Below, piece after piece: positions 1,133-40,762 of a DNA stretch of 64,000 bases. The stretch spans positions 1 to 64,000 of the forward strand of contig DATGEL010000049.1 in NCBI GenBank assembly GCA_035310145.1, in the 5' to 3' direction. The position numbers were made by a program, and so were the translations under genes. Positions within the stretch are counted from its first letter, which is position 1, and each line of letters starts with the position of its first letter. The DNA is from Dehalococcoidia bacterium. Lineage in GTDB: Bacteria > Chloroflexota > Dehalococcoidia > CAUJGQ01. A model generated the notes under the pieces. The model was not told where the DNA came from, made no database searches, and was given only the letters and a program-made list of their open reading frames with translations.

Positions 1133-2173
1133 GTGTTCGTGGCTACTATCCGCGACGTCGGCCGCGCGGCGCACGTTTCGATCGCCACGGTCTCGCGCGT
1201 GGTCAACGGCGACCGTTCGGTCCACCCCGGCCTGCGCCGGCTGGTCGAGGAAGCGATCGAGCAGCTCGGCTACCGGCCGAACGCCGCCGCGCGCAGCCTG
1301 CGCCTCGCCCGCACCGGCACGATCGGCGTCGTCGTGCCCGATCTCACCAATCCCACCTTCACCGACATCCTGCACGGCGTCGAGCAGGTCGCCGCGGCGC
1401 GCGGGCGCAACCTCTTCATCTGCGACGCCGCCGGCTCGTTCAGCGCCCAGAGCGCCCACCTCGACCGGCTCTACGGCCAGCGCGTGGACGGCATCCTCAT
1501 CCACCCACTCGGCCCGTTTCAGGCGCAGATCGCCGCCACGCGGGCGCTGGGCATCCCCGTCGTCGTCATGGGCCAGCGCGCCCCCAGCGGCATGGAGCCC
1601 GAGATCGTGGTCGACGAGGCGGACGCTGCGCGTGCCGGCTTCCGCTTGCTCTTCGAGCTGGGCCACCGCCGCATCGGCATGATCATCCGCTCCTACGGCA
1701 GCGAGCCCTCGCAGCCGATGGCGAGCATGCCCGTGCGCCTGCGCGACTACCGCGCCGCCCACGACGAAGCGGGCATCCCCGTCGATGAGTCGCTGCTGTT
1801 CAGCGCTCAGACGCTGGAAGAGGCGCGGCGGCAGGCGAGCGAGATGCTGGCGCGGCCCGACCGCCCGACCGCCCTGATCGCGGGCATGCACCGCTTCACA
1901 CCGGGCATGCTGCTCGCCATCCGTGAGGCCGGCCTGCGCATGCCGCGCGACGTCTCGCTGCTGGCGCACGGCGATTCGCTCTGGGCCAACGCCTTCGAGC
2001 CGCCGATCAGCGTGATCCGGCTCGACTACAGCGCTTTCGGCCGGCGCGCCGCCGAGCTGTTCTTCGCCGTGGAGGCGGGCGAGGCGCAGGAACAGACCCT
2101 GACCCAGCGCTCGGAGCTGGTGGTGCGCCGCACCTGCGTCCCGGCGCGGCTGGTTGCGGCAGCGGCCCATTAG
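1133..2173 (+). CDS. LacI family transcriptional regulator
   Basis: 346 residues with the standard two-part layout. The N-terminal helix-turn-helix and hinge (IRDVGRAAHVSIATVSRVVN, then GYRPNAAARSLR) are followed by a periplasmic-binding-like sensor domain starting at TGTIGVVVPDLTNP. This family binds palindromic operators and is released or recruited by a sugar or related ligand. A GTG start at 1133 is used here; another GTG two codons later is possible. The divergent SDR gene, and perhaps the downstream Gfo/Idh/MocA enzyme, are natural candidate targets. The ligand is unknown. Confidence 0.92.
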   Translation: MFVATIRDVGRAAHVSIATVSRVVNGDRSVHPGLRRLVEEAIEQLGYRPNAAARSLRLARTGTIGVVVPDLTNPTFTDILHGVEQVAAARGRNLFICDAAGSFSAQSAHLDRLYGQRVDGILIHPLGPFQAQIAATRALGIPVVVMGQRAPSGMEPEIVVDEADAARAGFRLLFELGHRRIGMIIRSYGSEPSQPMASMPVRLRDYRAAHDEAGIPVDESLLFSAQTLEEARRQASEMLARPDRPTALIAGMHRFTPGMLLAIREAGLRMPRDVSLLAHGDSLWANAFEPPISVIRLDYSAFGRRAAELFFAVEAGEAQEQTLTQRSELVVRRTCVPARLVAAAAH

Positions 2174-38025: not shown

Positions 38026-38092
38026 GCTCGTGTTCCGATAGATGGTCGTGGCGGCGCTTGAGCCCGTTGCTGTGGTTTGCCACGATCGGTGC

Positions 38093-39265
38093 ATGGACGG
38101 CGTGCTGCTGCTGCTTGGCCTCGCGATGGCCAGCGCCCTGCTGGTCCAATACGTGCGCGTGCCCTACACGGTCGTGCTCGTCGTGCTGGGGCTGGCGCTG
38201 GGCGTGGCGGACGTGAAGCCCGGCTTCGCGCTGGACCGCGACCTGATCCTGCACGTCTTTCTGCCACTGTTGCTGTTCGAGGCGGCGCTGCTCGTCGATC
38301 TGCGCCTGCTGCGCGACGCGCTGACGCCGATCGCCGTGCTCGCCGTGCCGGGCGTGATCGTCTCCACCCTGATCATCGGCCTGCTGCTCTGGCGGCTCAC
38401 GGGCCTGAACCTCGCCCTGGCAGCGCTGTTCGGCGCCATGGTCTCCGCGACCGACCCGGTGGCGGTGCTCGCCACCTTCAAGCGGCTGAAGATCTCCGAG
38501 AAGCTGGCGCTGGTGGTCGAGGGCGAGAGCGTGCTCAACGACGGCACGGCGCTGGTGCTGTTCACGCTGTTGCTGCCGGCGGCGCGGGGCGGCGTCTTCC
38601 GGCCGCTCAACGTCGGGCTACAGTTCGTCGGCGTGCTGGCCGGCGGGCTGCTGGTCGGTGCGGTAATGGGTTGGCTTGGGGCGCGCTGCGCCGCGCTGCT
38701 GGAGGACCACCTGGCGCAGCTCGCCGTCTCGGCGCTGGTGGCCTACGGCGCCTTTCTGCTGGCCGAGCGTCTGCAGGTTTCCGGCGTGATCGCCACCGTG
38801 ACGGCGGGGCTCGTCTTCGCCGCCGACGGCGCCGAACGGCTGCAGCCCGCCGCGCGGGAGTTGCTGCACGAGGTCTGGGAGTTCGCGGCCTTCCTGGCCA
38901 ACTCGCTGCTGTTCCTGCTAATCGGCCTCAAAGTCGGTCCGACCAATCTGCGCGGCGTGACCGGCGACCTCGCCTGGGCGGTAGCGGCGACGCTGCTGGC
39001 CCGGCTGCTCGTGGTCTACGGCAGCGGCGTGCTGTTGCGCTGGTGCGGGCGTCCGTTCCTCTGGCGGCACGGGGCGCTGGTCTTCTGGAGCGGCCTGCGC
39101 GGGGCACTGGCGATCGCCCTGGCGCTGAGCCTGCCGCTGGACCTGCCGCAGCACGACCTGCTGCTGCGCCTCACCGCCGGTGTAGTGCTGTTTACGCTGC
39201 TGGCGCAGGGACTGACGATCGCACCACTGCTGCGCCGCCTCGAAGCGTCGTCCGGCGCAGCATGA
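38093..39265 (+). CDS. CPA1-type Na+/H+ antiporter
   Basis: 390 residues from ATG 38093. About 12 hydrophobic segments. The conserved FGAMVSATDPVAVLATFK motif holds the ion-binding Asp, and LVVEGESVLNDGTALVLF is the second family signature; FWSGLRGALAIALALSLP carries the conserved Arg. It exchanges Na+ (or K+) for H+ across the membrane. The long cytoplasmic tail of some NhaP proteins is absent. Confidence 0.93.
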   Translation: MDGVLLLLGLAMASALLVQYVRVPYTVVLVVLGLALGVADVKPGFALDRDLILHVFLPLLLFEAALLVDLRLLRDALTPIAVLAVPGVIVSTLIIGLLLWRLTGLNLALAALFGAMVSATDPVAVLATFKRLKISEKLALVVEGESVLNDGTALVLFTLLLPAARGGVFRPLNVGLQFVGVLAGGLLVGAVMGWLGARCAALLEDHLAQLAVSALVAYGAFLLAERLQVSGVIATVTAGLVFAADGAERLQPAARELLHEVWEFAAFLANSLLFLLIGLKVGPTNLRGVTGDLAWAVAATLLARLLVVYGSGVLLRWCGRPFLWRHGALVFWSGLRGALAIALALSLPLDLPQHDLLLRLTAGVVLFTLLAQGLTIAPLLRRLEASSGAA

Positions 39266-39405
39266 GGTTGCCTTCGCCCGCCGTTTGCTCCGCGCTTCGC
39301 CGCTGCCGTATTATCGCCGGGCAAGCGGGCAGTGACGTGGGCCGGCACACCGGCCATGCAACAGCGCTAACGCCGCGGCCGCACCCGGTGTCGTTACGGC
39401 CTGAA

Positions 39406-39667
39406 AGGGGCTCGCCCCTGAGACCAACGGAGTTGCCGCTGAAGCGCGGGAAGCCCCGCGGTGAAATCACCGTCCGCGCAGCGGACCTCACTGCTGGGGT
39501 GCTTAGCATGGGCGGGCAAGCGCCCACCGTAGATCAACGCTTGCCCCCATCGCGTTCGGAGATGTCCATCAACGTGCGGGAAGCCCCGCGGTGAAATCAC
39601 CACGGCCGCAGGCCGTCTCACTGCTGGGGGTGAAAGGGGGCGTGCCCCCTATGACCATCGGAGATGT
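39406..39667. repeat. Tandem array of hairpin modules (two full units, 130 bp apart)
   Basis: A 26-nt block at 39446-39471 is repeated exactly at 39576-39601. It folds as GCGGG-AAGC-CCCGC plus GGTGA-AA-TCACC. Each copy is followed by a variable 6-bp hairpin with a GCA loop (GTCCGC/GCGGAC, then ACGGCC/GGCCGT) and by CTCACTGCTGGGG. Further hairpins lie at 39406-39419 and 39635-39650. CGGAG(A/T)TG recurs, and its last copy serves as the ribosome-binding site of the alcohol dehydrogenase. The gene gap 39266-39670 holds nothing else that I can see. Confidence 0.8.
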
Positions 39668-39670
39668 GCA

Positions 39671-40762
39671 ATGAAAGCCGCCGTTCTGCACGAGGCGAAG
39701 GAGCCACTGACCGTCGAGACGCTGGACGTGCGCGACCCCGCACACGGCGAAGTGCTGGTGCGCACGGCCACCACCGGCGTCTGCCATTCCGACCTGCACT
39801 TCGTGGACGGCCTCTGGCCGATCCGCTTCCCCGTCGTGCTCGGCCATGAAGCTTCCGGCGTGGTCGAGAAGATCGGCGACGGCGTGACCTACGTGAAGCC
39901 GGGCGACAAGGTGATCCTCTCCTTCAGCCCCTTCTGCGGCCGCTGCCAGATGTGCACCACCGGCAATCCCCACCTCTGCCAGGAGCCGTCGGGCCGTGAC
40001 CCGTCGCCAGAGGCCGGGCCACGCATCACCTGGGACGGCCGGCCGGTGACGCAGTTTGCCAGTATGGGCTCGTTCGGGGAGATGATGGTCGTGCCCGAGG
40101 GCGGCCTCGTGCGCATCGACGACCCGGACACCTCGCTGGACACGGCCGCGCTGGTCGGCTGCGGCGTGATGACCGGGGTGGGCGCGGTGCTGAACACGGC
40201 TAAGGTCAAAGAGGGCGAGACCGTCGTCGTCGTGGGCTGCGGCGGCGTCGGGCTGAACGTGATCCAGGGCGCCGTGCTGGCCAACGCCGGCCGCATCATC
40301 GCCGTGGACTTGCTGGACAACAAGCTGCAGATGGCGAAACAGTTCGGCGCCACGGACACGGTCAACGGCAAGGAGACGGACGCCGTTGCCGCCGTCAAAG
40401 AGCTGACGAAGGACAACGTGGACTTCGCCTTCGAGGCGATCGGCAACACCACGGCGGCGCGGCAGTGCTTCGACATGGTGCGCCGCGGCGGCACCGCCGT
40501 GATCGTCGGCATGATGCCCTGGGGCTCGGAGATCAGCGTGCCCGGCCCGGCGCTGCTCTCCGAGAAGAAGTTGATCGGCTGCTTCTACGGCAGCACGCGC
40601 CAGCGCGTAGACATGCCGCGCCTGCTCAACTTCCACAAGCAGGGCAAGCTCAAGCTGGACGAGCTGGTGACCAAGCGCTGGGAGCTGGGCCAGGTGAACG
40701 AGGCCTTCGCCGCGCTGAAGAACGGCGAAGTCGCCCGCTCGATCATCCCGATGACGAAGTAG
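39671..40762 (+). CDS. Zinc-dependent alcohol dehydrogenase
   Basis: 363 residues. Catalytic zinc ligands: Cys in TGVCHSDLHF, His-Glu in LGHEASGVVE; structural zinc lobe C-x2-C-x2-C-x7-C in FCGRCQMCTTGNPHLCQ. The NAD fold reads VVVVGCGGVGLNVIQG with Asp in IIAVDLLDNK. It is closest to the medium-chain class III/acyl-alcohol group (NDMA- or NAD-dependent). The ribosome-binding site (CGGAG) lies in the hairpin array upstream, and a heptamer repeat begins at the stop codon. Confidence 0.93.
   Translation: MKAAVLHEAKEPLTVETLDVRDPAHGEVLVRTATTGVCHSDLHFVDGLWPIRFPVVLGHEASGVVEKIGDGVTYVKPGDKVILSFSPFCGRCQMCTTGNPHLCQEPSGRDPSPEAGPRITWDGRPVTQFASMGSFGEMMVVPEGGLVRIDDPDTSLDTAALVGCGVMTGVGAVLNTAKVKEGETVVVVGCGGVGLNVIQGAVLANAGRIIAVDLLDNKLQMAKQFGATDTVNGKETDAVAAVKELTKDNVDFAFEAIGNTTAARQCFDMVRRGGTAVIVGMMPWGSEISVPGPALLSEKKLIGCFYGSTRQRVDMPRLLNFHKQGKLKLDELVTKRWELGQVNEAFAALKNGEVARSIIPMTK

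Follow-up and report, generated by a model that had tools for sequence, protein, structure and literature searches.

According to our analysis, the array of hairpins that lies upstream of an alcohol dehydrogenase gene in the stretch of Dehalococcoidia bacterium DNA studied here (the window: 64,000 nucleotides, nt; assembly GCA_035310145.1, contig DATGEL010000049.1, positions 1 to 64,000 of the forward strand) probably represents a lineage-specific, tandemly amplifying interspersed hairpin repeat, which enters the interval between a native Shine-Dalgarno sequence (SD) and its start codon and replaces the ribosome-binding site (RBS). The family has the look of a hitherto undescribed interspersed repeat and not of a known riboswitch. 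An interspersed repeat fits better than a leader sensing a ligand or product, because the arrays occur as insertions at conserved operon junctions, the genes that follow them are unrelated, the number of tandem units varies, and some copies are near-identical.

The preliminary description of this region rested on a 26-nt block found in identical copies at 39446-39471 and 39576-39601, each followed by a hairpin with a GCA loop, and this was confirmed. The two hairpins, GTCCGC-GCA-GCGGAC (39472-39486) and ACGGCC-GCA-GGCCGT (39602-39616), differ in five of six base pairs and retain all six as pairs. The repeat itself is longer, with 81% identity over 54 nt (39446-39499 and 39576-39629). The array exceeds what chance would give: within the 5.3-Mb genome the 26-mer has no copies besides these two, and covariance models match diverged relatives at ten further loci (E-values as low as 1e-19). 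The folding energy of the whole array region is unexceptional for its composition (z = -1.1), and the case therefore rests on comparison. The two units originally noticed are both real, as are the further hairpins reported at 39406-39419 and 39635-39650, but the count has to be raised to three, since a degenerate unit occupies 39345-39437. The last unit does merge into the RBS of the dehydrogenase gene, as had been proposed. The features are listed below; the scores refer to two covariance models, R1 (built from 12 copies) and R2 (built from 26 matches), which retrieve the same set of sequences.

38042-39265, + strand: upstream co-directional gene (open reading frame, ORF) for a membrane protein, probably a cation/proton antiporter by inspection only
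39345-39437, + strand: unit 1, degenerate, short type (R1 30.6 bits, R2 40.8 bits)
39406-39419, + strand: unit 1 hairpin AGGGG-CTCG-CCCCT
39426-39434, + strand: unit 1 SD hairpin AAC-GGA-GTT
39450-39566, + strand: unit 2, long type, from sequence (R1 42.2 bits, R2 43.5 bits)
Within unit 2, + strand: hairpin CGGTG-AAAT-CACCG
39472-39486, + strand: unit 2 variable hairpin GTCCGC-GCA-GCGGAC
39509-39526, + strand: unit 2 extra hairpin TGGGCG/CGCCCA
39548-39564, + strand: unit 2 terminal element CATC..CGGAG..GATG
39580-39668, + strand: unit 3, short type, the terminal unit (R1 103.9 bits, E 1e-19; R2 99.4 bits)
39602-39616, + strand: unit 3 variable hairpin P2, ACGGCC-GCA-GGCCGT
39635-39650, + strand: unit 3 hairpin P4, AGGGGG-CGTG-CCCCCT
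39657-39665, + strand: unit 3 terminal mini-hairpin P5, ATC-GGA-GAT
39660-39663, + strand: SD GGAG supplied by the repeat, 7 nt 5' of the ATG at 39671
39671-40762, + strand: zinc-dependent alcohol dehydrogenase (ORF; PF08240 and PF00107), whose RBS comes from the array

A blastn search of the array region against its own genome revealed related copies on eight other contigs, and the covariance models bring the family to about 23 units at 11 loci, all in one genome. The arrays contain three units on the window contig (C49), C99 and C15, one on C98, C58 and C94, and one at an internal site of C83; C103 carries two separate arrays, of two units and one unit. Two more arrays are broken by the assembly: one runs from the end of C83 to C84 (three units), a join backed by the acpS-nnrE neighbourhood in a genome of the same family (G001), and the other from the end of C110 to C86 (about four units), a join assigned by elimination. 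The four contig ends concerned (C83:1, C84:53402, C86:1 and C110:38644) all fall in the same near-identical array stretch; the repeat thus broke the assembly, and two of the arrays are almost the same in sequence. Over about 245 nt, the arrays of C84 and C86 are near-identical, and the genes that follow them are unrelated, which points to recent copying between loci. The copies are thus dispersed, related and non-coding, with no conserved reading frame, as is generally required of a bacterial small interspersed repeat family. The left-hand borders of several arrays are blurred.

The comparison with G001 indicates insertion. This genome has no copies of the repeat, and three conserved junctions that carry arrays here are empty there, which is the insertion pattern looked for in miniature inverted-repeat transposable elements (MITEs). 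The genes for methylmalonyl-CoA epimerase and a B12-binding subunit overlap by ATGA in G001 and stand about 235 nt apart here, separated by two units; the subunit ATG of G001 is preceded by the SD GCGGAG, and in the present genome GGGCGGAGCAGGGC, which looks homologous to it, comes first, then the array of two units, then the ATG. The gap between meaB and the DUF2344 gene grows from 38 nt in G001 to about 125 nt, and that between acpS and nnrE from 19 nt to more than 300 nt. Given the three junctions that lack arrays in G001, the arrays are, on this comparison, extra DNA between, or next to, a native SD and its start codon. Native-looking GGAG sequences are left at the left edge of the arrays on C103, C98, C58, C83 (internal) and C110. 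Some arrays have CGGAG on both sides, which fits either a duplication of 4-5 nt or a native SD together with that of the element.

All 11 arrays lie in the sense orientation and end at a start codon. The spacing GGAG-N7-ATG is exact in 10 of them, whereas in front of the other ORFs of the sequence available the distance of GGAG is spread over 6-9 nt and beyond. On the most economical interpretation, an array would insert on the start-codon side of the native SD, ahead of the start codon, and its last hairpin, which presents CGGAG in the loop 7 nt before the ATG, would replace the RBS displaced by the insertion. Insertion may be tolerated, or even targeted, because this last hairpin gives a new SD at the right distance, and translation of the downstream gene would now start from the SD of the repeat. 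Spread between loci may have occurred by copying, through transposition or through recombination at GGAG-type microhomology, and the arrays presumably grew by tandem duplication. The hairpins may have been kept because they fold in the mRNA, where they could insulate the RBS against base-pairing with mRNA further upstream, or make the downstream cistron more stable.

Each unit begins with a linker that contains a small hairpin, followed by P1 (GUG-AAAU-CAC), the variable hairpin P2 (missing in some copies), a stretch UCAC...GGGGGUGA, P4 (AGGGGG...CCCCCU), UAYGACC and P5; in place of P4, the long type has an inserted AUGGGCG/CGCCCAU hairpin and GCUUGCCCC. P5 (NNC-GGA-GNN), whose loop is the SD, closes each unit and appears in other copies with the arms AAC/GTT, AGC/GCT and TGC/GCA. 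Whole units measure about 65-130 nt, and the distance from P1 to the SD is 65-102 nt and falls in all three residues modulo 3. Among 24 distinct units, paired cells make up 77% in the structure, compared with 43-50% when the partners are slid, and 13 of 23 pairs show two-sided changes (49 cells, against 18.8 in shuffles); the rows are all paralogues of one genome, and their relatedness inflates these counts. The main support for covariation comes from P2, with two-sided changes at five of six pairs across the same 24 units, and from P5, whose middle pair is UA in 7 cases, GC in 7, AU in 4 and other in 4, with about 91% of cells paired. The support for P1 and for the UCAC/GUGA pairing is weaker; an alternative pairing of the same bases, GUGA/UCAC plus CCCC/GGGG, receives about as much support overall as the GUG-AAAU-CAC hairpin. 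The stems covary among homologues as is expected of a structured cis-regulatory RNA, and the earlier suggestion of an element selected for shape is borne out by compensatory stem changes across paralogous copies.

The evidence speaks against translated leader peptides or upstream ORFs, in which the hairpins would merely be GC-rich coding sequence. Some units are free of stop codons, and frames in the last window unit and in the C103 unit stop over the downstream ATG; but the lengths of the units do not keep to one residue modulo 3, no frame stays open across the whole set, and the stem changes keep pairing rather than encoded residues. We consider this explanation highly improbable.

A further possibility is that the units are purely parasitic or neutral DNA hairpin repeats, their pairing kept by template switching within palindromes or by swaps of palindromic modules, and that only copies restoring an RBS have been tolerated. 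Whole hairpins do seem to have been swapped as modules, including those of the long and short types, and the near-identical copies at different loci, the tandem variation and the restriction to a single genome would all be accounted for. On the other hand, none of the detected copies is antisense or away from the RBS position, unlike the pneumococcal BOX, RUP and SPRITE repeats (PMC3049150), and the SD hairpin covaries although its three pairs are too short for obvious correction at the DNA level. We regard purely parasitic or neutral repeats as unlikely.

The arrays could also constitute a dedicated cis-regulatory RNA regulon, in which each unit binds a protein or ligand and controls translation through the SD hairpin, tandem units act cooperatively, and CsrA would be the most concrete candidate regulator. 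The exclusive location at RBSs, the sense orientation and the tandem units agree with this, as do the conserved AAAUC and GGGGGUGA stretches and the placement of the SD in a covarying hairpin with a GGA loop, where the GGA motif overlaps the SD. The CsrA/RsmA leader sites likewise have GGA in hairpin loops, one of them overlapping the SD, and a csrA gene was found in the genome (PF02599, 78.4 bits; L083 1393-1650, contig C89), directly downstream of a gene for a FliA-like flagellar sigma factor. CsrA prefers an A 5' of GGA. The present family does not conserve this A: CGGA may be preceded by U, A or G, each varying with the base that it pairs with, so that no A(N)GGA loop with a fixed A is present. 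Each unit has a single conserved GGA loop, the copies appear to have spread by insertion, and the genes downstream share no pathway. Furthermore, the searches found no relatives of the family outside this genome, and riboswitches are normally more widely distributed. A regulon of this kind appears unlikely, though it deserves consideration.

Several observations weigh against the interpretation of the arrays as an interspersed repeat that replaces the RBS. No terminal inverted repeats were seen by inspection of the arrays, no clean target-site duplication was found at them, and no mobility machinery, including a Y1/RAYT transposase, was identified in the genome. The genome (G000) is a 148-contig draft of a single strain. 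On C15, a separate native SD lies between the repeat and the ATG. In folding predictions, the accessibility of the SD showed no consistent difference from shuffled sequence and varied between loci; for this reason we claim no switch, and sequestration of the SD was dropped as a claim. Finally, parasitic repeats tend to keep away from the region 5' of genes, as in the pneumococcal case (PMC3049150), so that the copies may be under selection for function.

The distribution of the family is narrow. No copies were found in 392 other genomes of the class, and about 400 genomes of the phylum gave a single weak match (29 bits, in G536), although these large-scale model searches used stricter filters and could have missed weak distant relatives. 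The expectation of an RNA widespread in Chloroflexota, to be recovered with a covariance model, was therefore not borne out. The match in G536 was rejected as a family member, since it is an array of another kind that resembles ours in layout and differs in sequence. It consists of three tandem copies of the palindrome GGGGGGTTGCAGGGGGCCCGCCCCCTGCGATGAACTGGCGAAGCCGGC (L093, about 1415-1600, minus strand), placed between co-directional genes and reaching the next start codon, and may represent an analogous family elsewhere in the phylum. Low-scoring matches in G001 were coding or unrelated. A pattern scan of the GTDB collection gave three matches attributed to chance (L068 and L070 are both located within long ORFs, and the sequence of L069 matches that of L068), a scan of IMG/VR gave two of only 13-15 bits, and blastn searches of plasmids and phages gave none.

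In Rfam 15 (4227 families), cmscan found no family at the gathering threshold in the window and only sub-threshold matches around the other arrays, in agreement with the preliminary description, which named the element as a candidate for something undescribed. The comparison it offered with Chloroflexi-1 (RF01698), an RNA reported from one Chloroflexus species (PMC2864571), failed: no match appeared at E<=10 in the window region or in 68 kb around all arrays. A divergent cobalamin-type riboswitch, prompted by GGTGAAATC...CACTG, likewise gave no Rfam signal at E<=10. One sub-threshold match to the Twister-sister ribozyme (L037 4258-4337, minus strand; 26.6 bits against a gathering threshold of 34, E 0.17) is probably due to chance.

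Among known systems, the BOX elements of Streptococcus pneumoniae (boxA-boxB(n)-boxC; PMC3049150) are the closest in build. They too are small, interspersed, intergenic and modular, with hairpins and variable numbers of tandem units, and effects on downstream expression have been reported for them (PMC3049150). BOX elements have terminal inverted repeats and a proposed insertion sequence partner, and they prefer convergent genes, between which RUP and SPRITE are also enriched (PMC3049150); in the family described here no such terminal repeats were seen, all copies abut start codons in the sense orientation, and the unit has a built-in SD (BOX sequences were not directly compared). In position, the nearest counterpart is the group of TAACTGA direct repeats of marine Beggiatoaceae, which lie forward, abutting the start codons of unrelated genes, and for which a translational role was proposed (PMC4679880). 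These are 7-nt repeats that show little resemblance to an SD and lack a hairpin architecture (PMC4679880), whereas the present units are structured and carry an SD. The REP/BIME elements, which RAYT (Y1) transposases mobilise, are also short interspersed palindromes, often in arrays. The units found here differ from them in having several hairpins and in lying at RBSs, and a REP/RAYT identity was ruled out, as the genome has no Y1 transposase (no PF01797, Y1_Tnp, match in G000; five of 14 controls were positive). Among the open-access papers searched, none described a structured repeat that itself carries the SD.

The insertion sites of interspersed repeats in bacteria are usually the least harmful ones; here, the interval from SD to start codon, the most sensitive of non-coding positions, has been colonised by a repeat that brings its own SD at a fixed spacing, even between operon genes that overlap in a relative. 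If our interpretation is correct, this would be a natural route to rewire the translation of unrelated genes, and the three empty sites together with the paralogous copies provide a testable case of repeats becoming control elements of 5' untranslated regions. A stronger version is doubtful: insertion would be targeted to the native SD-start interval, not merely filtered by selection, and the repeat would act as a mobile RBS cassette that gives unrelated genes one uniform, structured initiation module, perhaps under central regulation.

The genes downstream of the arrays have no common function or pathway. They encode two short-chain dehydrogenases (the second identified by inspection), the zinc alcohol dehydrogenase, a DUF2344 protein, a DUF4097 protein, an amino-acid permease, an NAD-dependent epimerase, the NAD(P)H-hydrate repair enzyme, the succinyl-CoA synthetase beta chain, a HAD hydrolase and the B12-binding subunit, which was assigned to methylmalonyl-CoA mutase by its neighbourhood. 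The upstream gene is apparently co-directional for at least 10 of the 11 arrays, those other than the array on C98. At the internal array of C83 (L074 1945-2031), the SD of the repeat precedes a frame of nine codons (MDVEWTRNR), the stop codon of which overlaps the GTG of the HAD hydrolase gene, and translational coupling is possible at this site.
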